A DNA stretch of 64,000 bases. Source: Heloderma charlesbogerti (lineage: Eukaryota; Chordata; Lepidosauria; Squamata; Helodermatidae). Position 1 is the stretch's first letter, and each line of letters opens with the position of its first letter. The notes under the pieces were generated by a model that searched no databases, had not been told where the DNA came from, and saw only the letters and a program-made list of their open reading frames with translations. The stretch is taken from contig JANEZZ010001566.1 of NCBI GenBank assembly GCA_026122225.1, forward strand, positions 100,001 through 164,000, in the 5' to 3' direction. Positions 9,532 to 58,619 of this stretch are shown here, one piece after another. The position numbers and the translations under genes were made by a program.

Positions 9532-10469
9532 TAGGGATGTCAGAGAATTCCGCCACGGATCTTGGGGAGGCCGAATGCCAGTGCATTCGGCCCCCCAAAA
9601 TCGGTGGCGGAATGGTCTGCCATCCCCCTGCCCCCCCCCGGGACGGGACTTACCTTGGGTGGATCTTCCTGGCGGTGGCGGCAGCTCCGGCAGTGGTGCG
9701 GCGGCCGGTCTTCCGACCGACTGCCGCCGCCGCCATTTCCAGTTAAAAAAAAAACCCAACAAAAAAAGTGATAGGCTACGTAAAGATTACGTAGCCTATC
9801 ATGGCTAGATTTTTAAAAAACACCATGATAGGCTACGTAAATGTTTATGTAGCCATCACGGCTGATTTAAAAGGAAAAAACATGTGCGTATGCAAATGGC
9901 GGCGCCCATGGGCGCCGCCATTTGCGTTCCTTATTTTGGCACATCTTAGTCTATGTAAACATTTATGTAGACTAAGACGGCGAAAAAGGGGGAACGCAAA
10001 TAGCGTAGACGCTACGCTATTTGCGTTCCCCTTATTTTCGCCATCTTAGTCTACGTAAATGTTTATGTAGACTAAGACGTGCCAAAGTAAGGAACAAAAA
10101 TGGCGGCGCCCATGGGTGCCGCCATTTGCCAACGCATGTTGTTGTTGTTTTCTTTTAAATCAGCCGTGATAGGCTACGTAAACATTTACGTAGCCTATCA
10201 CGGCTGACTGCAGGGATGCAAACAGCAGCAGCTACAGCCGCTGCCATTTGCATCCCTGCTAGCCAGTGGCCGGATGTCCGGCTGCTGGCGGAGCAGGCTG
10301 GCAGCTCCGCAGAATCCCTGCAGAGCGGAGCCAGCCGGCCAGAATTTCGGGGGGGAGGGATGGAGCGCCTCCCCCCCTGGCCAGAATTTCGTGGGGAGGG
10401 ACGGAGCACCTCCCCACCACCACGAATGTCACCCTTCGAAAAGGTAAGTGACTTTCGTACATCCCTTTC
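9532..10469 (+). mobile_element. Palindrome-array hAT-type element, copy A
   Basis: Starts TAGGGATGTCAGAGAATTCC and ends CTTTCGTACATCCCT plus TTC. Flanks GTAAAATC (9524-9531) and GTATAATC (10470-10477) match at 7 of 8 bases, and removing the element rejoins the LINE reading frame. The interior is a row of hairpins: a GAATGC..GCATTC hairpin near the left end; TAGGCTACGTAAA hairpins near 9770-9805 and 9825-9862; CAAATGGCGGCGCCC near 9890-9930; AGTCTACGTAAA pairs near 9945 and 10050; and CAAATAGCGTAGACGCTAC near 9990. It has no ORF of transposase size. Outward splice-donor-like motifs lie at 9648-9654 (reverse) and 10441-10449. Confidence 0.88.
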
Positions 10470-10477
10470 GTATAATC

Positions 10478-10880
10478 TGTAAGACACATTTTATATAACT
10501 ATGGGATTAGTATAGATGTCTTACCCTCCTCTAACACTGACAGAGTAAAACAGCTCTGCAAGGAAAGAATTTCCCTATATGCACAACATCGAGATCTATA
10601 TTCCATCTCCAATATGTCATACTCAACCTGGTATCCCCTGTATAAAACAACGTATGGCTTGGAGCGCTACTTCACTCTGCTCACTGTTGCTCCCCGAAGA
10701 AAATCATTTACAGCCCTGAGAGTACAGAGCATGCCCTCTGCTTTCCTAGATGGAAGATTTTAAAAAGTCGTATTCCATCTATGACTCTGTATATGCAAGT
10801 CCGGTGAGGTTGAGGATACTGATAACTATCTCCTCCATTGCCCCCTCTATGAGTCCCCAAGAGCCAAATTTCTCCAGTAT
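10478..10880 (+). pseudogene. LINE ORF2 C-terminal part between the two insertions
   Basis: The LINE resumes after copy A with a frame reading SVRHILYNYGISIDV and later LYKTTYGLERYFTLL, then PMYESPRAKF-like sequence. This matches the usual region downstream of the RT thumb. It is interrupted again at 10888 by copy B, whose perfect 8-bp duplication lets the frame be rejoined at 11653. Confidence 0.7.
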
Positions 10881-10888
10881 ACTCTTAA

Positions 10889-11652
10889 TAGGGATGGGCA
10901 GATTACTTACCCCATTCCAGGTGGGAGCGTCTGCTGGGGGGGGAGGTGATCTGTCCTTCCCCCCGGAATCCTCCCTGGCCGGCTCCACTCCGTGGCAAGT
11001 CCGCGGAGCCGCCAGCTGGGCCCGCCCGCAGCCAGACTTCTGTCCACTGCAGGGCTGCGGCCGCAAATGGCGTCCGGTGTAGCGGGCACCATTTGCGTCC
11101 CTGCGTTAGCCATGATAGGCTACATATATATTTATATAGCCTATCACGGCAAAGAGCAGGGACACAAATGGCAGCTGCTACACCATTTGCATCCCTGCGC
11201 TTTTCGTGATAGGCTACATAAATATATACATAGCCTATCACGGCTAATGCAGGGATGCAAATGGCGTAGTGGCCGCCATTTGCATCCCTGCATTAGACGT
11301 GATAGGGTACATATATATTTACTTAGCCTATCACAGCAAAGAGCAGTAACGCAAAAGGTGTAGCGGATGCCATTTGCGTCCCTGCTCTTTGCCATGATAG
11401 GCTACATAAATACATAGCCTATCACGGCTAACGCAGGGAGGCAAATGGCAGCCGCAGACCAGGGCAGCCATTTGCAGCCGCAGACCAGGGCAGCGGGCAG
11501 ACTGGACCAGCCAATGCCAGGTAGGGTCTGTCCCGGGAAAATTTCACGAGGTGGCAAGGGGGAGTGCTCCGTTCCGCCATGGACTCTGGAGGGCCGGATT
11601 CTAAAGAATCCAGCCTCATTGGAGTCTGTGGCAGAATTCTCTAACATCCCTA
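10889..11652 (-). mobile_element. Palindrome-array hAT-type element, copy B
   Basis: Begins TAGGGATGGGCAGATTACTT and ends GAATTCTCTAACATCCCTA, with a perfect 8-bp duplication ACTCTTAA at 10881-10888 and 11653-11660. The interior alternates TGATAGGCTACATA-type and GCAAATGGC/GCCATTTGC hairpins with spacers near 11100-11450. Outward donor-like motifs occur at 10905-10911 (reverse) and 11517-11526. It is the younger insertion in this part of the LINE. No ORF of interest. Confidence 0.9.
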
Positions 11653-11660
11653 ACTCTTAA

Positions 11661-12007
11661 TTCTTTGGAAAACAGATCCCCTATGGAACAGGTGTGCTCT
11701 TTGCTGGCAGGTAACGATGATTTGCACTGCAGGTTGCCAAATTTGCTTGTGCTGCTAGGAAGCTGAGGGCAAGGCATTTAACTGCTCTTGCCAGTCAATC
11801 TTAGGGGAAGGCTTGTGCCTACGGCATTGTCCTGGGGGGCGGGGGAGTATTACTTTCTTGTTTCATTATAAATATTTTAATTGTCCTCTTTTGTATTTTA
11901 TCCAGGTTTTTCTTTTCCTGGTCTCTAACTCATGTATTTTAATTGTCATTTTAACTTGAAATTGTGATGGCCTTTGGCTTTAAACAATAAAGATTTATAC
12001 TGCTACT
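11661..12007 (+). mobile_element. 3' end of the LINE
   Basis: Continues the ORF2 C-terminus for a short distance (a cysteine-containing stretch with LWNRCALCW and CQICLCC), then a T-rich 3' UTR. It ends CAATAAAGATTTATACTGCTAC immediately before the right copy of the 88-bp L1-derived duplication. The AATAAA close to the end may serve as the polyadenylation signal. Confidence 0.7.
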
Positions 12008-12491
12008 ATCCATTTGAAGGTGGTGGCTATATGCCACCCGTTCAAATATTGAAAGTGTTATAAGGTCCTTGATTCATTGCATTATAAGAGGTGAGTGTTT
12101 ATCCTTCCAATGTTGTAATATCAGTCTTTTAGCTGTCAAAAGGGCTCAGAGAATCCATTTACGCTCGCTATTTGTTAATTTCCATGAAGCAGGTAAATAA
12201 TTTAAAAGAGTGTGTTCATCAGTGAAAATTAAAGACTGTTCCAGTACAAAATTTATCTGCATAATAACCTCCTCCCCCAAAGAAGCAACTACTTCCAAAA
12301 CAAACATTTTAAAAATGCATTAGCTATATTGCACTGCCAACAATTAGCAGAATTAGACAATCCCTTATTAAAGAGATGCTGCAGTGTCCAATAGACACAA
12401 AACAAAAGTTTTTGCTGAATAAGATGCAGCCTAAGATCCACAGACATGACAGGTAGATGCCCAAGTGGTGATCCACTGATTAGGCATTTTG
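12008..12491 (-). mobile_element. L1-type LINE 3' end, antisense, right part
   Basis: Continues the L1 broken at 3182. On the minus strand it reads HLIQQKLLFCVYWTLQHLF and then a decayed zinc-knuckle region (NCWQC). This parallels the better copy at 56602-57567 (LIQQKLLFQVYWTPQNLF, NCWRCN). It is 5'-truncated at about 12491 within ORF2. The first 88 bp (12008-12095) duplicate 3095-3182. Confidence 0.8.
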
Positions 12492-12561
12492 TGGTGCTGC
12501 CCACAGCAGTTTCTCAAATTCCCAAATGTGCCCATGGGCCCAAAAGGGTTGAGGGGCACTG
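12492..12561. mobile_element. Outer hAT-type element, right remnant
   Basis: Contains GCCCATGGGCCCAAAAGGG and ends GAGGGGCACTG, the inverted counterpart of the left end at 2915. Its right flank AAATTAGA pairs with AAATCAAA at the left. It closes the outermost datable layer of the nest. Confidence 0.65.
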
Positions 12562-12790
12562 AAATTAGAGAATGATGTAGCTTCAAGGTTGTGGTATGAC
12601 AATGGAGGAAGGGCAGAGTCTTGAGGAAGCAGGAGACTGTTGGACAGTGGAGAATGGTGGAGCTGGAGGAGGAAAGATCATGGGCGTGGTTGTATTGGGA
12701 TACAAGAGCAGACAGGGTGCACTTGGCTATAGAGGGTTTTGAAGGCAAGGACTAGGAGCTTGTGGTGGATCTGGGAGCAGACAAGACAAC
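12562..12790. repeat. Old interspersed repeat, right half
   Basis: Purine-rich sequence (GAGGAAGGGCAGAGTCTTGAGGAAGC, GGAGCTTGTGGTGGATCTGGGAGC in part) that appears to continue the repeat broken at 2914. Assignment is by context and style only. Confidence 0.35.
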
Positions 12791-12983
12791 TCAAAGGTTG
12801 AGTGAATACACAGACACACCACATGTATGTGTGTATGTTTACAAACACTAGATTACTGGTATATCTCTCGCTCATGCTGGGTCTCTGGGATGGTGTATTT
12901 TTATCTTTTATAGAGGACACATGTGTAATATGTTATGTCACAGTTTATTTCTATGCCAAATAAACTATACAGTTTGTTTTTTG

Positions 12984-13057
12984 TGCCCTCCAGATGTGTT
13001 GGGCTACAACCCCTATCATTTCCATGTGGCCCAACACATCTGGAGGAGCACCAGGCT
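12984..13057. mobile_element. Small foldback element
   Basis: CCTCCAGATGTGTTGGGCTAC on the left faces GGCCCAACACATCTGGAGG on the right, with a short loop. The same arms occur around 37390, 48590, 59394 and 59845. The whole unit is an imperfect inverted repeat with no coding capacity. Confidence 0.65.
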
Positions 13058-13078
13058 GGATAACAACATAATGGGAGG

Positions 13079-13358
13079 CAGAGCCGGGCCAAGACATCTT
13101 GTTGCCTAAGATGAAGAACAAGATGGTGCCCCCTCCCATTCCATGGACAAAAGCCAGTTGGACTGGCAGATGACTCTGACTTCTGCACTGGTGAAGTGCC
13201 AGCATCTTCCACTACACCTGAAGGCAGCAGGCTGGCTTGGGGGATGCAGGACAGGTTGCATGACATGTAGCTCTCTCTTCCAACTCCTTGCTGCCAGCTC
13301 CCAGCATCTGCTGTCTGAGGTGACTGCCTCAGTCTTCCTAATGGAAGGCCTGGCTCTG
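13079..13358. mobile_element. Non-autonomous hAT element
   Basis: Terminal inverted repeats CAGAGCCGGGCC and GGCCTGGCTCTG differ at one base. They are flanked by ATGGGAGG and ATGGGAGA, a 7 of 8 match. The 280-bp interior has no usable ORF. TIR style and duplication length fit hAT. Confidence 0.8.
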
Positions 13359-13621
13359 ATGGGAGAGTCTGCACATCACACTAAGCCACCCTGCGAATAA
13401 GCCACCATGGGCTGATTTTTCGCTTGCTAACCTGACATACGATCAGGCTTGCCATGGCTTGTTTCCCCCTTCATTCCCCCTCAGTCGTCCATGCCAGTCC
13501 CGGCATGTAGCCCACGCACCTTTGTGACAGAACTCATTTCCTCCATCCCTACCTCACTTTTTGCCGGTTTGGCTGGTCAGCTCTGTAGCAGTTCCCAACA
13601 AGCCATGAAGAAGTCAGCTTG

Positions 13622-13805
13622 CTGGGTTCAGACAACACAACAAGCTACCATGGCTATCATCACCCCTAAAACAAGCCATGGGTTCTCAGGGTGGCTTGTT
13701 CATGAAAAATAACCCACCCTGCAGAAACCTCACTGGGTTTGCACAGCACAACAACCCACTGTGGCTGATCAGCCATGGTGGATTGTTGTGTTGTGAGAAC
13801 CAGGT
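13622..13805. mobile_element. Inverted-repeat MITE
   Basis: The left arm CTGGGTTCAGACAACACAAC (then AAGC, CCATGG) pairs with a right arm ending CCATGGTGGATTGTTGTGTTG and GAGAACCAGGT, giving arms of about 34 bp with few mismatches. I could not fix a target duplication. Confidence 0.6.
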
Positions 13806-13829
13806 CAATAAGTTTTCTTTCCCTTGAGC

Positions 13830-14950
13830 ACAGCAAGATCAGAATGAAAGTAAGTATGTGCATTTCTGACATCACTCACCATTTGAAGTTTGAAAACCAC
13901 CTCTACCCCTGCACCCATTTGTAAGGTTTGGGAGGGACGCAAGATGTGTTGTAATGCAATATGGGAAGTGGGGCCTTTTGAAGGCCTTTTGAAGGGATTA
14001 ATGGATCTTGTCTGTTTTGCTTGCTCCCACATTTACATTTCTGACATCTTACATTCTGTTTGGGGAGAAATTCCTTCATAAATACATTTGAATAAGCAAA
14101 TCATACTTTTTTGATCAAAAAGTGGACGGAACAAAATTCTCACTTAACGACTAGCTATTCCCAGCATGGAAAGGACCACGTTGTACCTGCCTCAGATATA
14201 GCTGTTCAAGATGAGGATACTATTAGAAAAAAGAGGTGCCAACACTAATTCAGCCTGACAAAAGTGGCTGAAAACACAGGGATTCAAACCCCAACTTTTA
14301 AAAGCTAAGCATTCAAAGCCTGGATGTACGAATCTATCAGTTCAGCTTTCTCCCATATTCATTTTTTACAACAAATCAGGTTCTTTCCTTCCCATTTATG
14401 AAGATATTTGCAAATGTTGGTTTTGGTTTTTTTTTAAAAAAAACACCAAACAAAATTCTCACTCATCCCTATACTTTACTAGTTTCAGGACATCCCTCAA
14501 AACAAGGACATTTGAAGGAGGTGCTCTTGGGTCATGGGCTAGCTTGCTGCCTTTCAAGCAGTGTTTGCGCTTGAGAAACCAGGATTGGAGATGCACAAAG
14601 GACTCCTTCATAACTTTCAAAACCAAATGTTGCTTATACAACACAGTGAGCAAGAGGTCACTCACGCCCTTCCCAAAGAAATGTTCCTTCTGGCAGGGTG
14701 CAGAGAAAGAACTCACCAATTTAAAACAGTTTAACAACACTGGCCAGACGTGCTGCCACTGTTCCATACCAAACAATTCCCTCCTGGTGTAAATCCAGGG
14801 AGGGAATAACGTAAGTACTGCAAATGAGCTGTGGAATTAATAAATTCCCCAGGAATTGCTACTGAATTGTGTAAACAGCAGAGGCTTCCTGAGCTAAACA
14901 GCCTTGCATAAGGGCTGCTGAATATCGCGTCTGATTTTGGAACATTCTCT
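13830..14950. other. Unassigned stretch
   Basis: No recognisable element or gene. Short overlapping ORFs on both strands near 14460-14790 have no domain I recognise and are probably chance. Confidence 0.4.
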
Positions 14951-14957
14951 GCATTCT

Positions 14958-16405
14958 ACCTCCAGCAAAGGAGATCATTACCTTGTCGTGGTGCTGGAGC
15001 TTGAGCACCTCAATGACGCCATGAGCTAAACCGTGAAGGGACACCCAAGATGGGAAGGTCATGGCAGAGAGGTCAGACTAAATACGATCCCTGGGGAAGG
15101 TAACGGCAACCCACCCCAGTATTCTTGCCGTGAAAACTAAATGGATCAGTACAACCAGAGATATGTCGGTATACCATCAGAAGATGGGACTCCCAGGTCG
15201 GAAGATGGTCAAAATGCTACTGGGGAGGAGCAGAGGATAAGTTCAACTAGAGCCAGATGTGATGACGCAGCTAGCTCAAAGCCAAAAGGATGGCTAGCGG
15301 CTGACAGTTCTGGTGGTGAACAATGAATCCAATGTTCTAAAGATCAACACACCATAGGAACCTGGAATGTAAGATCTATGAGCCAGGGCAAATTGGATGT
15401 GGTTTTGGGGGAGATGTCATGATTAAATATAGACATTTTGGGTGTCAGTGAACTGAAATGGACTGGAATGGGCCGCTTCACATCAGATGACCACCAGATC
15501 TACTACTGTGGACAAGAGGACCACAGAAGAAATGGAGTAGCCTTCATAATTAATAATAAAGTGGCTAAAGCAGTGCTTGGATACAATCCAAAAAATGATA
15601 GAATGATCTCAATTCGAATTCAGGGTAAGCCATTTAACATCACAGTGATCCAAAAATATGCCCCAACCACAGATGCTGAAGAAGCAGAAGTAGATCAGTT
15701 CTATGAGGATCTGCAGCACCTACTGGATAATATGCCAAAAAGAGATGTTATTTTCATTACAGGAGACTGGAATGCTAAGGTGGGTAGTCAAACGACACCT
15801 GGAATTACAGGCAAGCATGGTCTGGGAGAACAAAATGAAGCAGGACATAGGCTGATAGAATTGTGTCAAGACAACTCACTGTGCATAACAAACACTCTCT
15901 TCCAACAACCTAGAAGATGACTTTATACATGGACTTCACCAGACAGTCGACACTGAAATCAGATTGACTACATCCTTTGCAGCCAAAGGTGGCGGACATC
16001 TATACAGTCGGTATAAACAAGACCTGGAGCTGCTGTAGTTCAGATCATGAACTTCTTATTGCACAATTTAGAATCAGACTAAGGAGAATAGGGAAGACCC
16101 ACAGATCAGTTAGATATGAGCTCACTAATATTCCTAATGAATATGCAGTGGAGGTGAAGAATAGATTTAAGGGACTAGATTTAGTAGATAGGGTCCCGGA
16201 AGAACTATGGACAGAAGTTTGCAACATTGTTCAGGAGGCAATAAAAAAAGTCCCAAAGAAAAAGAAAACCAAGAAGGCAAGATGGCTGTCTGCTGAGACA
16301 CTGGAAGTAGCCCAAGAAAGAAGGAAAGCAAAAGGCAACCGTGATAGGGGGAGGTATGCCCAATTAAATGCAAAATTCCAGAGGTTAGTCAGAAGACTAA
16401 CTTTT
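14958..16405 (+). mobile_element. RTE/BovB LINE, 5' part
   Basis: Begins near GGAGATCATTACCTTGTCGTGG, parallel to the start of the second BovB at 42672 (GGATCACTGCCTTGTTGTGG). It runs through the 5' region and endonuclease into the linker. It stops abruptly after FQRLVRR (about 16405) and has no RT or 3' tail. LINEs normally lose the 5' side, so loss of the 3' side points to later deletion or recombination. The tail was not seen nearby. Confidence 0.85.
15356..16405 (+). pseudogene. BovB ORF2 endonuclease and linker (broken)
   Basis: The RTE-type endonuclease begins GTWNVRSMSQGKLDVV, followed by LGVSELKWTGMGRF, YYCGQEDHRRNGVAFI, FITGDWNAKVGSQ (catalytic Asp and Asn) and SSDHELLIAQF (SDH motif) in the second open segment starting at 15977. 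A linker rich in KKVPKKKKTKKARW follows. An in-frame stop near 15432 and a frameshift near 15920 disable it. It closely parallels the frame at 43013-43474. Confidence 0.9.
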
Positions 16406-17668: not shown

Positions 17669-17670
<2 letters not shown>

Positions 17671-20785: not shown

Positions 20786-21727
20786 TAGGGATGTACGAAA
20801 ATCACTTACCTTTCGTGGATTATGCTGATGGTGGGGGGGGAGGCGCTCCGTCTCTCCCCCCAGAATCCTGGACAGGGGGGAGGTGCTCCGTTCCTCCCCC
20901 CCCCTGGAATCCTGGCCGGCCGGCTGTGCTCTGCAGCGATTCGCGGAGCCACCGGCCAGCTCCGCCAGCAGCCGGACATCCGGCCGCTGGCTAGCAGGGA
21001 CGCAAATGGTGGTGGCTGTAGCCGCCGCCATTTGCGTCCCTGCAGTCAGCCGTGATAGGCTACGTAAATGTTTACGCAGCCTATCACAGCTGACTTTAAA
21101 AAAACAACAGCAACGCGCGTACGCAAATGGCAGCGCCCATGGGCGCCGCCATTTGCGTTCCTTATTTTGGCACATCTTAGTCTACGTAAACATTTACGTA
21201 GACTAAGACGGCGAAAATAAGGGGAACGCAAATAGCGTAGCGTCTACACTATTTGCATTCCCCTTATTTTCGCCGTCTTAGTCTATGTAAATGTTTAGGT
21301 AGACTAAGACGTGCCAAAATAAGGAACACAAATGGCGGCGGCCATGGCCGCCGCCATTTGTGTACGCACGTTTGTTTGTTTTTTGTTTTTTTTAAGTCAG
21401 CCATGATAGGCTACGTAAACATTTACGTAGCCTATCACATTCTTTTTAAAAAACCTAGCCGTGATAGGCTACGTAAATCTTTACGTAGCCTATCACGTTT
21501 TCATTTTTTTTTTAACTGGAAATGGCGGTGGCGGCAGCCAGTCGGAAGACCGGCCGCCGCAGCTGCCGCCACCGGAGCTGCCGCCGCCGCCAGGAAGATC
21601 CGCCCAAGGTAAGTCTCATCCCAGGGGGGGCGGGGGGGGCAGGCCATTCCACCACCGATTTCGGGGGGCCGAATGCACTGGCATTCGGCCTCCCCAAGAT
21701 CCGTGGCGGAACTTTCGTACATCCCTA
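20786..21727 (-). mobile_element. Palindrome-array hAT-type element, copy D
   Basis: Begins TAGGGATGTACGAAAATCAC and ends CTTTCGTACATCCCTA, with a perfect duplication ATGAATTA (20778-20785 and 21728-21735). It is essentially copy A in the opposite orientation. In order the hairpins are TAGGCTACGTAAA near 21050, GGCAGCGCCC near 21120, AGTCTACGTAAA near 21176, a CAAATAGCGTAGCGTC centre near 21220, then their counterparts in reverse order to 21498. The whole interior is therefore a palindrome of palindromes. Outward donor-like motifs are at 20804-20810 (reverse) and 21606-21615. Confidence 0.92.
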
Positions 21728-21743
21728 ATGAATTAGGCCTAAT

Positions 21744-22343
21744 TAGGGACGGCGGAGAATTCCGCCATGGATCTCAGTGAGGCCAAATGCACTGGCATTC
21801 GGCCCCCTGAAATCCGTGGCGGAACGAAGCCCCACCACCCCCCCACCCCGCAAAAGGCGCATGAAACAGAGCACCTACCAGAGCATCTGAGACCGCCATT
21901 CGCTTCACGATTTTTCCCATGATAGGCTACGTAAATCCTTACGTATTTGCATCCCTGCCATTTGCGTCCCTGCGGAGGCCATGATAGGCTAAATAAATAT
22001 TTATGTAGCCTATCATGGCAAAGAAAGGGAACGCAAATGGCGGCCACCGTAGCCACCGCCATTTGCGTTCCCTTTTTTTGCCGTGATAGGCTACATAAAT
22101 ATTTATGTAGCCTATCACGGTGAAAAAAAAGGGACACAAATGGTGGCTACGGCGGCCGCCATTTGCGTCCCTGCGCAGCCCAGCAGCGGCTGGATGTCGC
22201 TGCAGGCGGCCCCGGCCAGTGGCTCCGCGGAGTCACCGCAGAGCAGAGCCAGCCGGCAAGGATTTCGGGGAGAGGGACGGAGCGCCTCCCCCCCACCGCG
22301 GATGTCACGAAACAAAACAAGTAAGTCGTTTCATACATCCCTA
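21744..22343 (+). mobile_element. Palindrome-array hAT-type element, copy E
   Basis: Starts TAGGGACGGCGGAGAATTCC and ends CGTTTCATACATCCCTA. Flanks GGCCTAAT and TGTCTAAT match at 6 of 8. Its left target copy touches the right target copy of copy D, so only 16 bp separate the two elements. Hairpins TAGGCTACATAAATATTTATG and GCAAATGGCGGCCACC occur near 21985-22125. It is shorter than D and has lost several hairpin units. Confidence 0.85.
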
Positions 22344-23765: not shown

Positions 23766-23766
23766 G

Positions 23767-24575: not shown

Positions 24576-24641
24576 GAATCATAGGGTTGGAAGGGCCTAC
24601 AAGACCATTGAGTCCAACCTGCACAGGTTGCTCAGTGCAGG
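24576..24641 (-). mobile_element. CR1 3' end scrap, antisense
   Basis: GAATCATAGGGTTGGAAGG followed by AGACCATTGAGTCCAACC and GCTCAGTGCAGGAA, the conserved CR1 3' UTR. It joins directly to a 5S-derived segment downstream. Confidence 0.75.
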
Positions 24642-24658
24642 AAGCCTGATTCCCATGT

Positions 24659-24724
24659 GGTCTCCCATCCAAGTACTAACCAGGGCTGACCCTGCTTAGC
24701 TTCCGAGATCAGACGAGATCAGAC
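24659..24724 (-). pseudogene. 5S rRNA-derived fragment, antisense
   Basis: TCTCCCATCCAAGTACTAAC, CCAGGGCTGACCCTGCTTAG and CTTCCGAGATCAGACGAGAT are the reverse complement of the internal promoter half of vertebrate 5S rRNA with few changes. Only the 3' half is present, with no upstream promoter or terminator context. This suggests a 5S-headed SINE or a processed fragment, not a working gene. Confidence 0.8.
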
Positions 24725-25134
24725 CCTGACTGTGCTCTGGTTTAAACTGTCGCTTTTTAATCCATCCCACTCTCCCCACCTGCTGTAGGACACATCTGGA
24801 GTCCTATTTGCATAAGCAGGTGTGGCTGAAGGGCAGCAAAAAGGACACGGGTGGAACCTGGGTGGGAAAAGCCCACTTGACTCCACATTTAAACTGGCCA
24901 CTCAAAAGAAAAGTGTTACATACATGCTGACATTTCTTACACTGATATGAATAGGACGCAAAGCACTTAACTTTGGCTAGGTACTTTGGCTTGCGTGCTT
25001 GGTGCTTTTATAAGTCAAGAACCAGAAGTCAGGAGCCCCCTTCTGCAGCCTGTTTTTCTCTTAACTTGAGAAGACACAGACAGTGCCATTGTAGAAGGAA
25101 AGGAACCAGTTGGCTTTTATTATATAATGCCAGA

Positions 25135-25686: not shown

Positions 25687-26132
25687 CAGGGATGTCAGAG
25701 GAAACTGCAACAGAATCAAATGAGTTCAGATTTCCATGAATCCAACTCATGGATTCCACAGTAGACCTGCTTTTCCTGAGTTACACAGATTCTGAAGACT
25801 TGCAGGCCATTTTTTAAAAAATCTTTCCAGAATTTTATGCAAATTTAGTCATAGAAAAATACGTAAAATTAAAAAAAAAAACTAGCCAAAAATGTGCATT
25901 TTCCCCATAGGCTAAAGCATGAAAGTATGGATTGGGGGGGTCCACATTTGGAGGGGGGAAGATTGCGCATTTGTGCAATTGCAAATTTGTGCAAATGCAA
26001 ATTTGCACAAATTTGGGAAAGTGGAAAAAATTGATTCTGCAGATGACAGAGTGAGCAGACGACAGAATGAAAGGCACCTGACAATCCACAAAATACAGTC
26101 AGAGTAGATTTTTCAAAATCCGTACATCCCTA
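25687..26132. mobile_element. hAT-type MITE sharing termini with the palindrome-array family
   Basis: Begins CAGGGATGTCAGAGGAAACTG and ends AAAATCCGTACATCCCTA, close to the ends of copies A and D. The right flank GTTTAAAG partly resembles the left GTTTGGTG. The interior lacks the CTACGTA hairpins but has short palindromic A/T-rich motifs (GCAAATTTGTGC, GCAAATTTGCAC near 25980). No ORF. Confidence 0.7.
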
Positions 26133-45953: not shown

Positions 45954-46687
45954 TAGGGATGTACGAAACACTTACCTGGTTTCATCCAGGGACATCCGCG
46001 GTGGGGGGGAGGTGCTCCGTCCCTCTCCCTGAAATCCTCGATGGGGGGGGAGGCGATCCGTTCCTCCCCCCCAGAATCCTGCCTGGCCGGCTCCACTCCG
46101 CAGCCAGGCCGTGGAGCCGCCGGCCGGGCCAACCCGCAGCGGGGCCTCCAGCCGCTGCCGGGCTGCTGTGGACGCAAATGGCATCCTGAGCAGGGGACAC
46201 CATTTGCGTCCTTATGGTAGCCCGTGATAGGCTACGTAAATATTTACATAGCCTATCACAGCTAAAGCGGGAATGCAAATGGCATAGGGGATGCCATTTG
46301 CGTTCCCGTTTTAGCCATCATAGGCTACGTAAATATTTACGTAGCCTATCACGGATAAAACAGGAACACAAATGGCGTAGGGAACACCATTTGCGTCCCT
46401 GCTTTAGCCATGATAGGCTACGTAAATATTTACGTAGCCTATCATGGGCTACCATAGGGACGCAAATGGTGTCCCCTACTCAGGAAGCCATTTGCGTCCG
46501 CAGCAGCCGGAGCCGCTGCCACCGGAGCCGAAGCCGCAGCTGGAGCCGCAGCCAGGTAGGCTCTGTTTCGCGGGGCTTTCGCAGGGTGGTGGGGCGGGTT
46601 GCTCCATTCCGCCACGGATTCCGGGGGGCCAAATTCACTGGAATTCGGCCCCCCTGGGATCCGTGGTAGAATTCTCTAACATCCCTA
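45954..46687 (-). mobile_element. Palindrome-array hAT-type element, copy F
   Basis: TAGGGATGTACGAAACACTT ... GAATTCTCTAACATCCCTA with a perfect 8-bp duplication TTAACCGG (45946-45953 and 46688-46695). It holds three TAGGCTACGTAAA hairpins near 46225, 46320 and 46408, alternating with GCAAATGGC/GCCATTTGC pairs. The third is a perfect 40-bp palindrome (46408-46447). Outward donor-like motifs are at 45971-45976 (reverse) and 46553-46560. It sits in the interior of the LTR element. Confidence 0.92.
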
Positions 46688-49847: not shown

Positions 49848-50363
49848 TAGGGGTATACGGATTACTCACCCCATTCCAGTCCAGGGTGAGTGGGCAATCC
49901 GTCCCTCCGGAATCCTCCCCAGCCGGCTCTGCTCCACGGTGAGTCTGCAGAGCCGCCGGCCAGAGCCGCCCGCAGCCGGAACTCCGTCCGCTGCTGGGCT
50001 GTGGCCGCCATTTGCGTCCCTGCGTTAGCCGTGATAGGCTACGTATATATTTACGTAGCCTAGCACAGCAAAAGGCAGGGATGCAAATGGCATAGTGGCC
50101 GCCATTTGCGTCCCTGCTCTTTGCCATGATAGGCTATGTAAATACTTACGTAGCCTATCATGGCTAAAGTAGGGAGGGAAATGGCGGCCGCAGACCAGGG
50201 CAGCCATTCACGGCCGCAGACGAGGGCAGCGGACAGCTGACAAAAGGTAGGGTCTGTCCAGGGGAAATTTCACGGGGTGGCCTGCTCTGTTCCTCCATGG
50301 ACTCTGGGGGGGCAGATTCTAAAGCCTCACTGGAGTCCATGGCGGAATTCTCTAACATCCCTA
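49848..50363 (-). mobile_element. Palindrome-array hAT-type element, copy G (short)
   Basis: TAGGGGTATACGGATTACTC ... GAATTCTCTAACATCCCTA, flanked by CTGGATTC and CTAGATTC (7 of 8). It has only two CTACGTA-type hairpins (near 50030 and 50125) and one GCAAATGGC pair. At 516 bp it is the shortest copy and most resembles copy B. Outward donor-like motifs are at 49864-49870 (reverse) and 50243-50252. Confidence 0.85.
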
Positions 50364-50639
50364 CTAGATTCCATAATACAGTGCTAAATATTTGGAAAGC
50401 ACTTGCTTCCACTTGTCCTTAGCCACCAGTATTAGTCATTGGCTTGGGGTTGTGATGCAGACATTTAGACAAAACCCAAGAAGTGATGGAATTTCCCGTT
50501 TATAGACATCATGTTGCATTTTAGCCAGAAGTAAGTTAGGGATCAAAATGACAAATGATATTTGCAGAATATTGGAGGGGGGGGGAGAAAAACTAGCATA
50601 AATTTCTGGTTGTAATTCAAGCAATCACTTTGTCTAGAG

Positions 50640-51190: not shown

Positions 51191-51213
51191 GCACGTCCTC
51201 CCAAACCCCCTAC

Positions 51214-51940
51214 CCTTTCATAGAATCACAGCATCATAGAATCACAGAATAGTAGGGTTGGAAGGGGCCTACAAGGCCACTGAGTCCAACCCCCTGCTCA
51301 ATGCAGGAATCCAAGTCAGAGCATCCCGGACAGGTGGCTGTCCAGCCTTGTCTTGAATGCCTCCAGTGTGGGAGAGCCCACCACCTCCCGAGGTAATTGG
51401 TTCCATTGTCATATTGCTCTAACAGTCAGGAAGTTTTTCCTGATGTTCAGCTGGAATCTGGCTTCCTGTAACTTGAGCCCATTATTCCGTGTCCTGCATT
51501 CTGGGATGATCGAGAAGAGATCCTGGCCTTCCTCTCTGTGACAACCTTTCAAGTACTTGAAGAGCGCTATCATATCTCCCCTCAGTCTTTTCTCAAGGCT
51601 AAACATGCCCAGTTCTTTCAGACTCTCTTCATAGGGCCTTGTTTCCAGTCCCCTGATCATCTTTGTTGCCCTCCTCTGAACCCTCTCCAGTTTGTCTGCA
51701 AACTTCTTAAAATGTGGTGCCCAGAACTGGACACAGTACTCCAGATGAGGCCTAACCAGTGCTGAGTAGAGGGGAACTAGTACTTCCCGGGAATTGGAAG
51801 CTATGCTTCTATTAATGCAGCCCAAAATAGCATTTGCCTTTTTTGCAGCCACATCACATTGTTGGCTCATATTCAGCTTGTGATCGACAACAATTCAAAG
51901 ATCGTTCTCGCTTGCAGTGTTGTTGTGCCTTTGTCTGCTG
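51214..51940 (-). pseudogene. CR1 LINE, end of reverse transcriptase and 3' UTR, antisense
   Basis: On the minus strand it reads [71 protein letters not shown] and [12 protein letters not shown], with a long open frame 51409-51870. It ends in the CR1 terminus near 51214. It is better preserved than the copy at 32838. The core RT (YADD) is outside the fragment. Its 5' edge carries the AAGCGAGAACGATCTTTGAA motif also seen at 32855. Confidence 0.93.
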
Positions 51941-52427
51941 TCCCCTCCAACAATTCATTAAATAGAGGATCTCCCCTAAATAGGTCTCCCATTTACTATA
52001 GGTCTCCCCATAGTCCTTCTTAAATAGGAAAGCCATCCCCTGGGGGGCCAATTGACCTACATTCCCAGCAGCTGGAAGCTAGTGCTGATCAAGAGTTCAC
52101 ACATAGCCTCCTTTGTTTATCGAACAAAGCCCTCCAATCAGATTCACTGCAGTAGCAGTTGGACCTATCTAAATAAAAAAGCACGCTTGCGAGGGAGTTC
52201 CTCTGAGTGCGAGGAACCCCTGTGATTAAGCATCTCAGCCCAGAGACAAAACATCAGCAAACAAGCAGGTTAAGCAACTGTACGTGTTTAGCAACAGTGT
52301 GAGGAAGCCAGGGCAGTAAACTTACAATAAGTAACTGTAAATAAATAACTATAACTACATCCCTCACTTTCTCATAGTAAACAACTAAGTTTTCCAGGTA
52401 AAACTCACCCAAATAAAAAAACCAGTC

Positions 52428-53310
52428 ATGAAGGTAGAAAGTCAGCAGGACTGTGGGGGCTATCCAGTGTATTGCACTGAATGCCACATGTACAACTATC
52501 TGCCTCCTGGACAGAAGTCGTGGGTTTGTACTCGGTGTAATTTGCTCCTGGCTCTCAGGGAACAAGTTCTTTCCTTTGAGGCCAAGGTTGCTGATCTGGA
52601 GAACCTAAGAGGGGCAGAGCAATTGGTGGATGAGACCATCAGGAACCTAATAGTGGTGTCCCACTCCATAGGTGACTGTTCCTCTTCAGTCACAGAGAAT
52701 GTGGGTCTCAGGGAAGGAGGGCATCATTCTGAGTAAGAGGGAAATAATCCCTTAGAAGGGACCCATTCCTTGGAAGATGAGCAAATATCCTCTCGCACTG
52801 AGGATGTGCCTCCAGGGGGAAGTGAGCTTATGGTATTGGGAGATTCGTTCATTAAACACATAGGCGGCTGCATTTGTGATGGGTGTCTGGACCACACGGT
52901 GAATTGCTTGCCTGATGCGAAGGTTGTGGACATCACACACTGTCTAGATAGTATAGTAGATAGTGCCGGGGAGGAACTAGTTGTCATGGTCCATGTTGGC
53001 CCCAACGATGTGGGGAAATGTAGTTGTGAGGTCCTGGAAGCCAAATTTAGGTCGCTAGGTAGGAGGCTGAAATCCAGGACCACCAAGGTGGCTTTCTCGG
53101 AAATGCTACCTGTTCCATGCTAGGACAGCTAGACAGGCGAAGCTCAGGAGTCTCAATGCATGGAGGAGACGGTGGTGCAGGGAGGTAGGGTTCAGATTTG
53201 TTAGGCACTGGGGAACGTTTTGGGACAAGCTGGGCCTGAACAAGAGGAATGGGCTCCACTTGAACCAAAATGGCACCAGACTGCTGGTAGCATTAAAAAA
53301 AAGGTGGCAG
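52428..53310 (+). pseudogene. CR1 ORF1: zinc-finger-like plus esterase-like protein (broken)
   Basis: ATG 52428 opens a frame with a paired-cysteine module (CTECHMYNYLPPGQKSWVC, CTRCNLLL) and a coiled-coil-like stretch (REQVLSFEAKVADLENL). A stop lies at 52734. The same frame resumes with LMVLGDSFIKHI, the GDS nucleophile block of SGNH hydrolases, and VHVGPNDVG, the GxND block. A shifted frame carries WCREVGFRFVRHWGTFWDK and RNGLHLN, the block with the catalytic His. The Asp expected before it is Asn here. CR1 ORF1 proteins with PHD-like and esterase domains are known, and the order here fits. Not functional. Confidence 0.85.
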
Positions 53311-53574
53311 AGCAGCTTTTAAACTAAACCCTGGGGGAGAGCCGACAGGAGCTAGGAAGCATCCAGTTCAGGTTAAGTCTGAACTGCACTTAACCTTAAG
53401 TCTGAACTGAACTTAACCCAAGGGGATGAAGATGAAAATGTTTTCAATCGCCCAAATGTAGAAGGGGAAGAAATAGGCCATGAGTATATGCTAGAGCACG
53501 ATAGCCAATCAGAGAGGCTCAAGTGCCATAGTAAAAGATGCACACGCCAGAGACATCTGGGGAGGGACACTGTG

Positions 53575-53938
53575 TATAGGTGTTTCTATACAAATGCTAG
53601 AAGCCTCTGAGCCAAAACAGGAGAGTTGGAGTGCTTGGTTTTAAAGGAGAATCTGGATATAGTGGGCATTACTGAAACCTGGTGGAATGGAGGGAACCAG
53701 TGAGATACGGTCATCTCTGGATATAAACTCTACAGGAAGGGCAGGGAAGGGCGTACTGGGGGAGGTGTGCCCTCAAAGAGGGCATGTTGTCAAGCTGACT
53801 AGAATACCTAAAAGGGCTAGAGTGTTCCGCAGAAGCACTGAGGGTGACAATACCAAGCTTCAAAACTAATTTAGTGCTAGAACATGTTATCGTCCCCCAG
53901 ACCAGAATGTTCAGGGGAGTGGAGATAGATATGCCACA
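53575..53938 (+). pseudogene. CR1 ORF2 endonuclease, N-terminal part (broken)
   Basis: Shifted frames read FYTNARSL, then GELECLVLKENLDIVGITET WW, then SGYKLYRKGRAGKG and, near 53885, CYRPPDQNVQGSGD. These are the first strands, the catalytic Glu (TETWW) and the YRPP strand of the CR1 endonuclease. The metal-binding GDFN and the SDH motifs are missing because the element ends here. Confidence 0.8.
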
Positions 53939-53940
53939 TC

Positions 53941-55230
53941 CACAAGCCTCTTCATCTCCCCGGCCCACCCCCAGGTGAGTGAAACAACTGGATGGGCTCC
54001 AAGGCCCAATTCACTTGAATAAACAAAATGGAGGAAGAGGAGGCTGTAAAAGCTTCTGCCGCTCCTTCTGCTCTGCCTGGCTCTGGATGGCAAAGCATGG
54101 GATAGAGAGAGAGCTCCAAGATCAGAGCCCTCTGTCTGTGGGGTGTTGATCCCTTAGGGTTGCACTCTGGGGCATTCTTGAAATTTATCACCCAAGCTAA
54201 CCCAAGGGACAATGGCATCTGCGAAGTTTAGGAACCAATTCAGGGTGGGCCTTTACTGAGGAAGGACTCATCAGCCCAGTGGAGGTGATAGCTCCTTTAG
54301 AGTTCTGACTGGTTCTGACTGAAACCCAGAGCGTATTCACTGCCCCACTGATGTCGGAGCCATGAGCCTCCACTGCATCAGCCATTTCCTCCATACTTCT
54401 GACACACATCCCCATTCCATTCAGGCTCATGCAAACCTCTGGCTTCTTGGCTTTCCTGTTTCCTGCTTCTGTACCACACCAGGGTCATAACTGACAATAG
54501 TGCTAATATTATATTATTTAATTCTAACTTAGTACTGTAATAGTGATCTGAAGGTTACTTTGCCACCAAATGATGAATTACTGTATTTTGCCCACATCAT
54601 CATCATCATTACGTTCTGGTTAACGAGAAGGAAATGAGATAAGGAACAATCCTAAGAGAAAAATGAATGATGGAAATTCTCATAGGGCCTGCTAATTTAT
54701 GTTATAAGAACCATGAATATCATATTCTTGAAGCACATCTAGAGCATGTTCACATATCTCGTCTGGGAAGCTTAAGATATGTCTGGCGTAGTTGTTTTTA
54801 ATTGTTATTTACATAATACATACTGATATCATAATACCTGATAAGTGCTAACACCCAATGCTTCTCACAATGATCAACTTTTAACATCAAAGTTAATCAC
54901 AAATTAAAAGCAGCCTCAAGAACGTAAACACAATCCATTTTTATACCATTTAATCATCCCTAGAAAAGAAGCTCTGACAGAATGTTTACATGTCTCATCT
55001 CAGAAACTTAAGAGAGGTCTGGCTTTTTAACTTTCATTCAGTTCCCATCTATTTGTAATTCATGACTGATTCTGTTCCCATTTTCTGTTAATTTGTTACT
55101 GGACAACTGGAGACTATAAAGAGCAGGGCAGGTCCTCCAGCCTCCAAAGCAATTGCCTTTTCCTCAGACATTATTGCCACCAGCTAACTAGGCTAAGGTT
55201 GCCAAACAACCACAAACAAAACTCATGCGG
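53941..55230. other. Unassigned stretch
   Basis: Two similar segments, TCTCGTCTGGGAAGCTTAAG (about 54758) and TCTCATCTCAGAAACTTAAG (about 54992), each followed by AGAGGTCTGGCTTTT-like sequence, suggest a local duplication or repeat pair. No gene seen. Confidence 0.4.
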
Positions 55231-55571
55231 CAGGGACAGTGTCAAGGGTAGGCATGGCTGGGCAGCTGCTGAGGGCCCACACCCCAGCAGGGACCCACTG
55301 ACAAGAACCCCTAGAGCAAGCTGCTTGTTCACCTGCCTCTCACTCTGGCCCAGACAACAGTGGTGGTGAGAAGGAGGAGGAGGAGATGCCTCTGCCTACT
55401 TGCTCCCTGGCGCTCAGCCTGCCAAGCAAGCAAGTGGCAGCAATGATGAGAAAGAGGAGAAGGAGCAAGAACAGCTGGTGACAATGGTGATGAGAAGGGA
55501 GCCTCACTAAGGCAGGGGGCCCACTGAGGGTGTCTTGCTCAAGGGCCCTCAAAAACGTGGAGCTGGCACTG
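55231..55571 (-). mobile_element. Non-autonomous hAT element, inverted relative of 36885
   Basis: CAGGGACAGTGTCAAGGGTAG at the left and GAGCTGGCACTG at the right correspond to the reversed ends of the element at 36885-37245. The target duplication is not convincing (4 of 8). Confidence 0.6.
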
Positions 55572-55884
55572 CCACGGGCATCCATTTTTTTTTAGCTTTG
55601 GGACCAGCTGTGTGTGTGTGTGTGTGCATGCGTGCATGTGTGTGTAAAAGTTAACACTTGTCATGTTGTTCTGAATAAAAGTCAGCAGCTTTCGCTAACC
55701 TACAGCGTACTCCTAAGCTCCATTGAGTTCAATGGTACTTACTCCCAGGTACGTGTGTAAGTGTGTAGGGGACTGCAGCCTTATTGTGTGTGTGCTTGGG
55801 CTGTATAACCCAGACACATATGCAGTGCTAAGGACACTGGGATCAGCCCTGTGTGAAATGCTATTATAGTACAAACTTTACAGG

Positions 55885-55950
55885 ATGGTCCCCAACTCAG
55901 TGGACGTGGACCTGCTGTGTATGCAGAAGGCCCTGAGCTCAGAACCGAAC
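55885..55950 (+). mobile_element. Decayed tRNA-SINE head
   Basis: CCCAACTCAGTGGACGTGGA and TATGCAGAAGGCCCTGAGC follow the A-box to B-box layout of the SINE at 36530 with many changes. Confidence 0.35.
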
Positions 55951-56355
55951 AACACTAGCTTAACCCTAGTCCCCAAATAGGTTCAGCACCGTGGATAGCT
56001 CCTTTAGAGTTCTGGCTGGGTTCTGACTAAAACCCAGAATGGATGCTCAGCCCCACTGAAATTGGAGCCACCAGCCTTCACTGCCTCAACCTGAGATGTT
56101 GGTGGATCATGGCCAGCTAGAGGAGATAAATTTGGGCTAGAATCTAGCTGATAGATGGACCAGTAATCTGAAGGTGCTTCTAGACAGGCAGCTCCAAGCA
56201 CTACCCAAGCAGCGCTCTTCCACCATCAACTAACAAGTGGAATTGTAATACACTACTGGGGGCATCACACTTTTTCTGTGTATTCATCCTCCAAGTTGGC
56301 TTTTCTGAAAATGGAGAAAAGAACCACAGGGAAAACACAGGGGGACAATGATAGG

Positions 56356-57622
56356 CAGGGCTGGCCCTACCACTAGGCAAAGTGAGGCAATAGCCTCAGG
56401 TGGCAGATGCTGGGAGGTGGCATCGAGGCGTTGGAGGAAAGAGCTATGTGCCATGTGGTCTGCCATGCACTCCCTAAGTGAGCCTGATGCCTTTAGGTTG
56501 GTGGAATGCTGGTGGATGCTGTCCCACTGTCAAAGTTGAAGGAAGATTCAACTGCTAGCCCATCTGGCTATTGTACATAGAATAGGAGGGAGCGACATCT
56601 TTTTTCATTTTTAATTTTTTTAAAAAAAATCTATTGCTGAGTTTCAACAAAACAAAACAAACAAACAAAAACATAACAAAACCCCCCAAAAATGAAAATA
56701 TAACATCATACTCTAAAGCCCTCAGTTTCAAATATTACAACATTCTAGGGGGGAAAAGGGAAAAATAGATTACACATAAGCTTCAGTAGAAGCAGACCAG
56801 ATATCCAAATATAAGTCCATTTGCAAATGATGCTTATATACCACTCTTTCAAACGTTGCTAGTGTTGTTAAGTCTTCAGTCCATTGCATTATAGGCAGTG
56901 AGCTTTTATCCTTCCAGTATTGTAGCACCAGTCTTTTAGCAGCCAAGAGGACACGAAAAATCCATTTACACTGACGGTATGTTACATTCCAAAAAGCAGG
57001 TAAATAGTTTAAGAGAACATGTACATCAGTAAATATTAAAGAGCTTTCCAATACAAAGTTTATCCGTATGATAACTTCCTTCCAAAAGGAGGCAACTATT
57101 GGGCATTTCCAAAACATATGAATAAAAGAAACATTAACTGCATTACACCTCCAACAATTAACCAAATTTGACAAACCTTTGTTAAAGAGATTTTGTGGTG
57201 TCCAATAAACCTGAAACAAAAGTTTTTGCTGAATAAGACAGAACCAGGGGTCTATAGATATATCAGATACAGACGCTGAAATGGTGGTCCATTGATTAGA
57301 CAAAATAGGACATTCCAATTCCCTATTCCATTCCTGCTGTAGACCCCATGTATCATATTTATTCACTGATAATAAGTATTTATAAACATGAATCATGGGT
57401 CGATGTACCTGGTCAGCTTCAACAAGTGTTTCCAATAACAAAGGAGACTCCGAGGCAGTAAAAGCAGCCGACCGAATCTAGATACTATCAAATGTTTCAT
57501 TTGCAAGTACTGTCATTCAGCTGTAGCAGGCAAATCAAATTTATCTCGCAAAGCTGAAAATGGCAATGGAGGGAGTGCCATCTTCTTCACCTCAGGCAGC
57601 AAAATGTCTTGGGCTAACCCTG
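56356..57622. mobile_element. Non-autonomous hAT element split by an L1
   Basis: Termini CAGGGCTGGCCC and GGGCTAACCCTG, flanked by ATGATAGG and ATGATTGG (7 of 8). The interior parts (GAGGCAATAGCCTCAGGTGG on the left, CACCTCAGGCAGCAAAATG on the right) become contiguous when the L1 at 56602-57567 is removed. Confidence 0.85.
56602..57567 (-). pseudogene. L1-type LINE ORF2 C-terminus and 3' UTR, antisense
   Basis: The minus-strand frame (56770-57441) gives WNRELECPILSNQWTTI, LIQQKLLFQVYWTPQNLF, then a zinc-knuckle-like CWRCNAVNVSFIHMFWKC, FWKEVIIRI and LLAAKRLVLQYWKDKSSLP. This is the order of the L1 ORF2 C-terminal domain. The poly-A tail appears as T-rich sequence at the left edge. Flanks GGAGGGAGCGACATCTT and GGAGGGAGTGCCATCTT form a 17-bp duplication with two differences. 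It is 5'-truncated but has an almost open frame, so it is the least decayed L1 here. It is inserted in the hAT element. Confidence 0.93.
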
Positions 57623-57754
57623 ATGATTGGATAACAATGTCACGAGGATGCCCTCACTGTTAAACGTGTGACAGCACTGAAGCATGTCAGTGTCGCGCAG
57701 CTTCATACGTAGATTGCTGGGTGTGTTTCTTCCATAGCCAACCCCACAGATTCT

Positions 57755-58619
57755 TAGGGATGTCAGAGAATTTCTCCACGAATCTCCGGGAGGCTGAATG
57801 CCAATGCATTAGGCCCCCCGAAATTGGTGGAGAAACGGCCCGCCCCCCCACCCCGGAATGGGACTTACCTTTGTCGAATGTCCCTGGTGCTGGCGGCTCC
57901 TGGTGGCGGTGTGGCGGTGGCGGCGGCCGGTCTTCTGACCGGCTGCCGCCGCCGCCATTTCCAAGTAAAAAAACAACAACAAATGTGATAGGCTACATAA
58001 AGATTTACGTAGCCTATCATGGCTAGATTTTCAAAAAACACCGTGATAGGCTACGTAAATCCTTACGTAGCCTATCACGGCTGACTTCGGGGGGGAAGCG
58101 CGTACGCAAATGGCGGCACCCATGGGCGCCACCATTTACATTCCTTATTTGAGCACATGTAGTCTACATAAACATTTACGTAGACTATGGCAAAAATAAG
58201 GGCAACGCAAATAGCATTGCCCTTATTTTCGCCGTAGTCTACGTAAATGTTTATGTAGACTACACGTGCCCAAATAAGGAACGCAAATGGTGGCACCCAT
58301 GGGTGCCGCCATTTGCGTACGTGCTTTTTTTTTTTTCCCCAAATTCAGCCGTGATAGGCTATGTAAGGATTTACGTAGCCTATCACGGCTGACTGCAGGG
58401 ATGCAAACGGTGGCGGCTTCGGCCGCCGCCATTTGCGTCCCGGCAGGAGACAAGATTCGCAGCCGGAGGGACGGGGTGCCTCCCCCCTGGCCAGAATTTT
58501 GGCGGGGAGGGATGGGGCACCTCCTACCCCGCCCAGAATTTCGGGGGGAGGGACGGAGTGCCTCCCCCCCACCGCGAAGCAAGCTGCAGGACCAGGTAAG
58601 GGACTTTCGTCCATCCCTA
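57755..58619 (+). mobile_element. Palindrome-array hAT-type element, copy H
   Basis: TAGGGATGTCAGAGAATTTC ... GACTTTCGTCCATCCCTA with a perfect 8-bp duplication CAGATTCT (57747-57754 and 58620-58627). The hairpin order parallels copy A: GAATGC..GCATTA near 57795; two TAGGCTACGTAAA hairpins near 57985 and 58045; CAAATGGCGGCACCC near 58105; GTAGTCTACATAAA near 58160; CAACGCAAATAGCATTGCC near 58203; then reversed counterparts to 58395. Outward donor-like motifs are at 57863-57869 (reverse) and 58591-58600. Confidence 0.9.

Follow-up and report, generated by a model that had tools for sequence, protein, structure and literature searches.

A hAT-like transposon family of Heloderma charlesbogerti with a two-level palindromic interior whose arms vary in concert in one branch

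The fish element Angel and the sea urchin element TU are non-autonomous and have strong secondary structure, TU being flanked by 8-bp target site duplications (TSDs); we know of no nested two-level palindrome and no outward-facing splice donors in either. Mar of Drosophila is a hAT miniature inverted-repeat transposable element (MITE) of 610 bp that is AT-rich, bears terminal inverted repeats (TIRs) different from those described below and has Buster-type nnnTAnnn TSDs, and the main text of the Mar paper contains neither the word hairpin nor any word beginning with palindrom- (PMC3517528). According to a study of template switching, a single inverted copying event creates or mends perfect stems and yields multi-base compensatory changes, the upkeep of hairpins by this route being rated less clear by its authors (PMC8794818). 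Here we describe a family of hAT-like elements with seven copies, E1 to E7, in a 64,000-nucleotide stretch of Heloderma charlesbogerti DNA (GenBank assembly GCA_026122225.1, contig JANEZZ010001566.1, positions 100,001 to 164,000 of the forward strand), the whole of which we call the window. The seven copies had been picked out earlier from the letters of the window (hereafter the sequence-only reading).

The best supported new point is that the interior of these elements is a palindrome at two levels and that in one branch of the family, the long type, its arms vary in concert. We think it fairly probable that the elements are non-autonomous hAT-type transposons with a palindrome-of-palindromes interior, of which the long-type dyad has been renewed by inverted copying and the short-type dyad is older and has drifted. 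Such elements would be moved in trans, the transposase being supplied from elsewhere. Template switching or foldback-primed repair in source elements would renew the long-type dyad, and each renewed version would then spread by transposition; the short type would carry an older dyad with arms that have since diverged. RNA begun in the CpG-rich interior might splice into flanking DNA at an outward motif near each end, or that motif may be a transposase site that resembles a splice donor.

When each copy was folded, all seven lay far beyond chance. Local folds (RNA parameters, span at most 120, no G-U pairs, 60 dinucleotide shuffles per copy) gave z scores of -23.5, -16.3, -24.0, -11.8, -14.1, -12.0 and -17.5 for E1 to E7, as compared to a mean of -0.96, a standard deviation (SD) of 2.0 and a lowest value of -8.0 for 67 background pieces of 800 bp (15 shuffles each). 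Strict hairpins (at least 14 pairs, at least 88% matched, non-overlapping) number 7, 3, 8, 2, 5, 3 and 6 in the same order, 34 altogether, and the 67 background pieces together hold 5; the greedy tiling of this count fuses adjacent hairpins into a single long stem. The sequence-only reading had credited the elements with eight or nine inverted repeats each, which holds for the long copies by the strict count and fails for the shorter ones, and had proposed that a strand could fold into a string of stems. Hairpins are indeed many, but each copy has one main centre, which makes it a palindrome of palindromes, and the best single-strand DNA fold of E3 (20786-21727; z -34, 20 shuffles) is one long rod, formed by the central dyad and bearing side hairpins, rather than stems alone.

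The main dyads measure 381, 463, 387, 186, 370, 205 and 348 bp in E1 to E7 (E4 has two overlapping dyads with nearly equal scores) and are 80-87% self-complementary, with smaller dyads nested within them, and their halves are strings of 30-60 bp hairpins. In the long type these modules, for which we coined the names T1, T2 and N, run in the order T1-N-T2-N-T2-N-T1 around a central CAAATAGCG hairpin that is partly deleted in E7. A central dyad of at least 160 bp is present in 37 of 42 full copies. By eye, the open frames inside the copies look like unconserved readings of the palindromes. In the central region of one copy elsewhere in the genome, L076 (G000:C1:590650-591620), there is a further hairpin type, TTTAGCCTA...TAGGCTAAA, which is T1 with both arms changed, and at 62656-62675, amid unlike DNA, 20 bp are identical to the core of the T1 hairpin, perhaps by chance or as a fragment.

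The arms of the dyads were compared by calling a column concerted when both arms of one copy differ from both arms of another. Ten long-type copies (three assigned by hand) gave 37 of 45 pairs with at least 70 columns and at least 70% identity; these hold 343 concerted, 48 left-right and 43 mirrored columns, with 33 pairs leaning to concert, 3 the opposite way and 1 tied. When long copies are compared two against two, E1 and E3 differ from the genome copies L032 and K68496 at 7 concerted columns to 0, and because of this copying inside one inserted copy is insufficient on its own; the grouping of E1 and E3 against E7 and K2154 yielded 0 columns of either kind. Of the 17 informative sites with two states in the window, 9 set both E7 arms apart from all E1 and E3 arms, and 0 separate left from right. 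The two E7 arms differ from E1 and E3 at 14 and 18 positions, and 9 of these differences coincide and show an identical base (1.55 expected, P = 4e-7); leaving out CpG-type transitions, 7 coincide (0.58 expected, P = 6e-9), and merged into runs the coincidences amount to 6 events (1.36 expected), matched in 7 of 20,000 random placements. We infer that the long-type dyad has been renewed by inverted copying or by fresh inverted duplication. Of the three guesses that the sequence-only reading had offered for the arrays (transposase-binding subterminal repeats, a recombination product or a source of hairpin RNA), a recombination product is thus the best supported, for the long type with its arms in concert and not for the short type.

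Selection on structure would offer another way of keeping arms alike, since working hairpins, whether as hairpin RNA or as cruciforms for transposase or replication, would have compensatory changes kept. The very stable folds are consistent with it, as is covariation in the B-end hairpin, which also counts for renewal by inverted copying and where 9 of 30 pairs have changed on both sides among the seven window copies (score 0.252 vs 0.161 shuffled, 0 of 500, and at most 0.127 slid); compensation appears there on 4 of 5 measures, with the structure drawn from these same sequences. We nevertheless regard this explanation as unlikely: 5 of the 9 columns that set E7 apart from E1 and E3 lie outside the T and N stems (a hairpin loop holds two of them, an A-rich spacer the other three), and changes private to E1 or E3 coincide only 1 and 2 times. 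The short-type arms, moreover, were free to drift, and Rfam at gathering thresholds matched solely a 5S-like stretch outside the elements.

A number of results weigh against renewal of the dyad by inverted copying within elements moved in trans. The 257 short-type pairs used, of 351 among 27 copies, hold 1000 concerted, 1091 left-right and 441 mirrored columns, and three groupings of short pairs gave 0 concerted columns, with 1 to 14 left-right splits inside pairs. The nearest arm is an arm's own partner in just 8 of 68 cases, and among the long pairs K2154/L076 (2 to 8) and K68496/L032 (3 to 7) lean away from concert; pairs share copies and hence are not independent, and the arrays may misalign. 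Further pair types in the B-end hairpin are not unusual (172 of 500 shuffles), and single-hairpin arms match just somewhat above permuted ones (20.1 vs 18.4 of 30; 19.2 vs 17.3 of 28), with some permutations in both sets surpassing the observed match. Finally, although the source genome is rich in hAT transposases (150 matches to the hAT dimerisation domain, PF05699, were scored among 871 candidates, some in open frames of 879-908 amino acids), the sequence read at 7 of the 150 scored loci, to at most 1 kb beyond the domain, contained no element end of this kind. For the short type we conclude from the alignments that the dyad is apparently old and its arms drifting apart.

The absence of net concert in the short type would also fit unequal exchange of a tandem unit of 93-95 bp (one T and one N hairpin) that made the arrays, the palindromes being merely inherited. 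Tandem Repeats Finder (TRF) does report a T1-N unit of 93-95 bp in 3.9, 2.3 and 2.0 copies in E2, E5 and E6, respectively. However, no array of this kind was reported for E1, E3 or E7, and such exchange leaves the concerted long-type arms unexplained, so we consider it an improbable origin for the arrays.

All seven pairs of borders given by the sequence-only reading were borne out (Table 1), as were its shared ends: TAGGGATGT-type termini are present in every window copy, some with mismatches. Nine of 14 termini are exactly TAGGGATGT/ACATCCCTA, and the five that deviate are the left ends of the copies at 10889, 21744 and 49848 and the right ends of those at 9532-10469 and 57755-58619. Comparison of the flanks likewise recovered the four perfect duplications and three partial ones that had been claimed, with 7, 8, 8, 6, 8, 7 and 8 matches of 8 for E1 to E7. 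Copies are oriented with the A-end (TAGGGATGTACGAAA-type) first and the B-end last, so that E1, E4 and E7 are minus-strand copies and the other four are plus-strand ones. E1 adjoins a LINE frame (long interspersed element). Read inwards, the B-end is mostly TAGGGATGT-CA/TA-GAGAATTC; E3 is exceptional in having ACGAAAG at its B-end terminus too. Identity between window copies over aligned columns is 0.76-0.89, being 0.85-0.89 among the long type (E1, E3 and E7) and 0.77-0.85 within a looser set (E2, E4, E5 and E6), of which E4 is slightly closer to the long copies (0.80-0.82) than to the other short ones (0.77-0.80). Their GC content is 54-59%, and CpG observed/expected is 0.61-1.02 vs 0.31 for the window. 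E3 and E4 are separated by 16 bp (21728-21743) and have separate 8-bp flanks (ATGAATTA and GGCCTAAT); AATTAGGCCTAATT, which lies between them, is a perfect palindrome and a possible insertion hot spot.

The assignment of the family as hAT-like is supported by 8-bp duplications in many copies together with short TIRs, and we take the TAGGGATGT-type start to be hAT-like as well. In the manner of MITEs, full copies are 169-958 bp long, non-coding and bounded by TIRs, and the source genome of 2.30 Gb has 22,987 exact matches to a 20-bp B-end pattern (reversed control, 0). A central TA, as in Buster-type nnnTAnnn TSDs, occurs in only 1 of 35 perfect TSDs (count by eye), and the long inverted arms do not run to the ends as in foldback elements, the main dyads of the window copies starting 147-267 bp from the A-end. 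Stretches beyond the seven hAT loci mentioned above are mostly alike; ACATCCCTA-like letters in six of them were rejected as termini, near-identical letters following in each (by eye). A scan of 10 of the 49 open frames listed for the window gave no hAT match; 5 of the 10 matched endonuclease or reverse transcriptase of the LINE type, presumably BovB- and CR1-like.

The description of a seven-member family is right for the window, but the family is far larger genome-wide. A 24-bp A-end pattern has 229 exact matches in the source genome (reversed control, 0), and 40 copies were chosen by it (the 20 first listed and 20 picked from the list), the right end being set by the best flank match. Of the 40, 28 lie between duplications that agree at 7 or 8 of 8 positions, perfectly so in 23, and 12 have none at that level. 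Because two of the 28 are one duplicated segment, 27 copies were analysed; they are 169-869 bp long and have fold z scores of -7.8 to -28.7, which are based on mononucleotide shuffles (10 each) and are not comparable with those of the window copies. The 264 kb around and including the window contain 16 clusters (11.2 kb), and outside the window this region has six full copies whose flanks agree at 7 or 8 of 8 positions, one of them interrupted mid-element, and 3 of 10 clusters in which the end pair was not found. The copy at G000:C1372:41950-42882, on the contig that also carries the window (C1372:100001-164000), has perfect flanks (ATATTGCC) and is interrupted near the middle by ~160 bp of other sequence.

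One of the A-end-chosen copies, L018 (G000:C150:366661-368190), is 169 bp long and consists of the A-end and the B-end hairpin, with no array, inside a perfect duplication (ATTGTCCC); either the array is unneeded for movement or it was lost following insertion. The guess that the arrays are transposase-binding subterminal repeats fits poorly, and we rejected end-proximal transposase sites as their main role: the arrays are central, the cousin family described below lacks them, and so does L018 despite its perfect duplication, with the caveat that its array may have gone after insertion.

Each window copy also carries, near both ends, an outward-pointing motif that resembles a 5' splice site. 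Using a donor matrix of human frequencies, we searched the 150 bp next to each end for the highest-scoring outward site. All 14 window ends score 8.0-12.7 bits (7 of them at least 11), the site being 22-26 bp away at the A-end and 114-135 bp away at the B-end, whereas 9.6% of 1538 background strand-pieces reach 8 bits and 1.0% reach 11. Sites of at least 11 bits number 7 in 10,718 element strand-bases vs 9 in 117,282 outside, and for the ends of E3 and E5 the observed score is attained by 1, 0, 1 and 45 shuffles per 1000. Among copies not chosen for the motif, the A-side reaches 8 bits in 15 of 16 (7 of 7 in the window, 5 of 6 on the contig and 3 of 3 scored copies chosen by B-end); a fourth B-end-chosen copy is cut just inside the A-end, yet shows GACTTACC. 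The A-side of the 27 A-end-chosen copies is circular and was therefore excluded. On the B-side, 36 of 44 copies reach 8 bits (7 of 7 window, 6 of 6 contig, 21 of 27 chosen by A-end and 2 of 4 chosen by B-end), most short-type sites being CAG/GTAGGC at 8.5 bits. Inward control strands reach 8 bits in 3 of 84 cases (E2, E6 and K193047), E6 with two inward sites of 10.2 bits. Between types, the nine motif bases agree at 0.76 and 0.69 and the ungapped flanks at 0.19-0.40, a comparison biased by anchoring on the best site. Since copies are related and A and B stretches may share ancestry, occurrences of the motif are not independent.

The outward GGTARG(T) motif may be a subterminal transposase-binding site rather than a splice site, a serious possibility to which we give somewhat less than an even chance. 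Its presence near both ends in inverted orientation is what such a site would show, and 4 of 14 window sites lack MAG. The A and B stretches following the motif are weakly alike (mean 9.35 vs null 7.32, SD 0.25; for single copies, 1 of 7 at 0.001 and the others at 0.011 to 0.96), and both ends may therefore descend from one terminal module. On the other hand, the distances from the two ends are unequal in the window, 8 of 44 copies (including L018 with its perfect duplication) have no B-side site of 8 bits, and two decayed cousin copies are without the motif. The window sites are also donor-like, with AAG or CAG before GT in 10 of 14 and G at +5 in 14 of 14, a resemblance that makes them candidates for a role in splicing.

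If that role is taken at its fullest, the family would be a mobile cassette, tens of thousands of copies strong, that acts as a two-way promoter and exon donor, in which the CpG-rich palindromic interior starts RNA on both strands, a 5' splice site near each exit joins a host exon beyond, and the long branch keeps its dyad halves alike by self-copying. We regard this as a long shot, made slightly likelier by the presence of the motif in copies that had been selected without it; were it true, an insertion could add a new first exon in either orientation. A captured coding first exon on the B-side (the E3 ATG frame into the donor) was rejected, as indels among E1, E3 and E7 are not multiples of three (by eye). 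A cassette exon with internal acceptors was also considered: acceptor-like tracts are present inside the copies, yet differ from copy to copy. Splicing-out of the element, as in Ds, was rejected on account of the position of the donors at the exit end of each strand.

Two further elements in the window, F1 and F2, have the same terminal motif and no hairpin array. F1 has 37 bp of B-end in common with E2 at 81%. With a GC content of 0.38-0.42 and CpG of 0.25-0.26, these copies fold almost ordinarily (z -2.5 and -3.8) and have no outward donor near their ends, although features may be lost in two decayed copies. We conclude that these cousins represent an ordinary MITE family of greater age. A short GCAAAT palindrome in the middle of F1 may relate to the N hairpins. 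Elsewhere in the window, 24633-24748 (minus strand) is 5S rRNA-like (Rfam RF00001, 41.3 bits) and may be a pseudogene or the head of a short interspersed element (SINE) derived from 5S, and at 6021-6195 a 57-bp unit is repeated 3.1 times with no mismatch, in phase (19 codons) with a 245-amino-acid open frame that has no Pfam match.

Table 1. Positions in the window of the seven elements, two cousin copies, central dyads and outward donor-like sites (slash, putative exon/intron boundary)
Feature	Positions	Strand	Remarks
E1, long-type element	9532..10469	-	B-end left, A-end right; flanks GTAAAATC/GTATAATC
E2, short-type element	10889..11652	+	perfect TSD ACTCTTAA
E3, long-type element	20786..21727	+	perfect TSD ATGAATTA
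E4, shorter element	21744..22343	-	16 bp after E3; flanks match 6/8
E5, short-type element	45954..46687	+	perfect TSD TTAACCGG
E6, short-type element	49848..50363	+	flanks CTGGATTC/CTAGATTC
E7, long-type element	57755..58619	-	perfect TSD CAGATTCT
F1, older cousin element	25687..26132	.	shares the terminal motif; lacks a hairpin array and any donor-like site of at least 7 bits
F2, second cousin copy	61952..62293	.	left end decayed; one 7.7-bit site mid-element
Central dyad of E1	9823..10203	.	element 267-647, 87% self-complementary
Central dyad of E2	11039..11501	.	element 151-613, 81%
Central dyad of E3	21052..21438	.	element 267-653, 87%
Better of two overlapping dyads, E4	21958..22143	.	element 201-386, 81%
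Central dyad of E5	46149..46518	.	element 196-565, 85%
Central dyad of E6	49994..50198	.	element 147-351, 80%
Central dyad of E7	58041..58388	.	element 232-579, 87%
E1 A-end donor-like site	10444..10449	+	AAG/GTAAGT
E1 B-end donor-like site	9648..9653	-	AAG/GTAAGT
E2 A-end donor-like site	10905..10910	-	GGG/GTAAGT
E2 B-end donor-like site	11521..11526	+	CAG/GTAGGG
E3 A-end donor-like site	20804..20809	-	AAG/GTAAGT
E3 B-end donor-like site	21609..21614	+	AAG/GTAAGT
E4 A-end donor-like site	22321..22326	+	CAA/GTAAGT
E4 B-end donor-like site	21873..21878	-	CTG/GTAGGT
E5 A-end donor-like site	45970..45975	-	CAG/GTAAGT
E5 B-end donor-like site	46556..46561	+	CAG/GTAGGC
E6 A-end donor-like site	49864..49869	-	GGG/GTGAGT
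E6 B-end donor-like site	50247..50252	+	AAG/GTAGGG
E7 A-end donor-like site	58596..58601	+	CAG/GTAAGG
E7 B-end donor-like site	57863..57868	-	AAG/GTAAGT

Because palindromes are unstable, it is a puzzle how long ones last and keep their symmetry in animal genomes. The present family, which has ends in the tens of thousands and both a concerted and a drifting branch in one genome, makes the upkeep of palindromes directly measurable. The outward donors, as predicted from their sequence, may be its most provocative point: if they splice, they would form a natural gene trap that could rewire transcripts near very many insertions. No such family was named among the matches listed in the literature on such elements or ends, a search whose scope lay outside Dfam, Repbase and subscription papers, and a repeat library may well hold the family, given its copy number. 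Papers listed for the end sequence itself look like chance hits. The exact hairpin pattern had 0 matches in viral-contig and genome-contig collections that contain no vertebrate genomes, zeros that say little.

The family shares with Mar its 8-bp TSDs, short TIRs, lack of coding capacity and movement in trans, and differs from it in its GC content, its nested-palindrome interior and the rarity of a central TA in its TSDs (PMC3517528). With the foldback elements Tetris and Galileo it has in common long inverted arms and internal repeats, and with Tetris, whose TSDs are 8-9 bp, the lack of a coding frame; whereas the arms of foldbacks are their terminal repeats, the long dyad here is central, is built of smaller palindromes and has short TIRs outside it (PMC4079207). 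Template switching is described for RNA genes, and is here put forward for transposon interiors of this size (PMC8794818).

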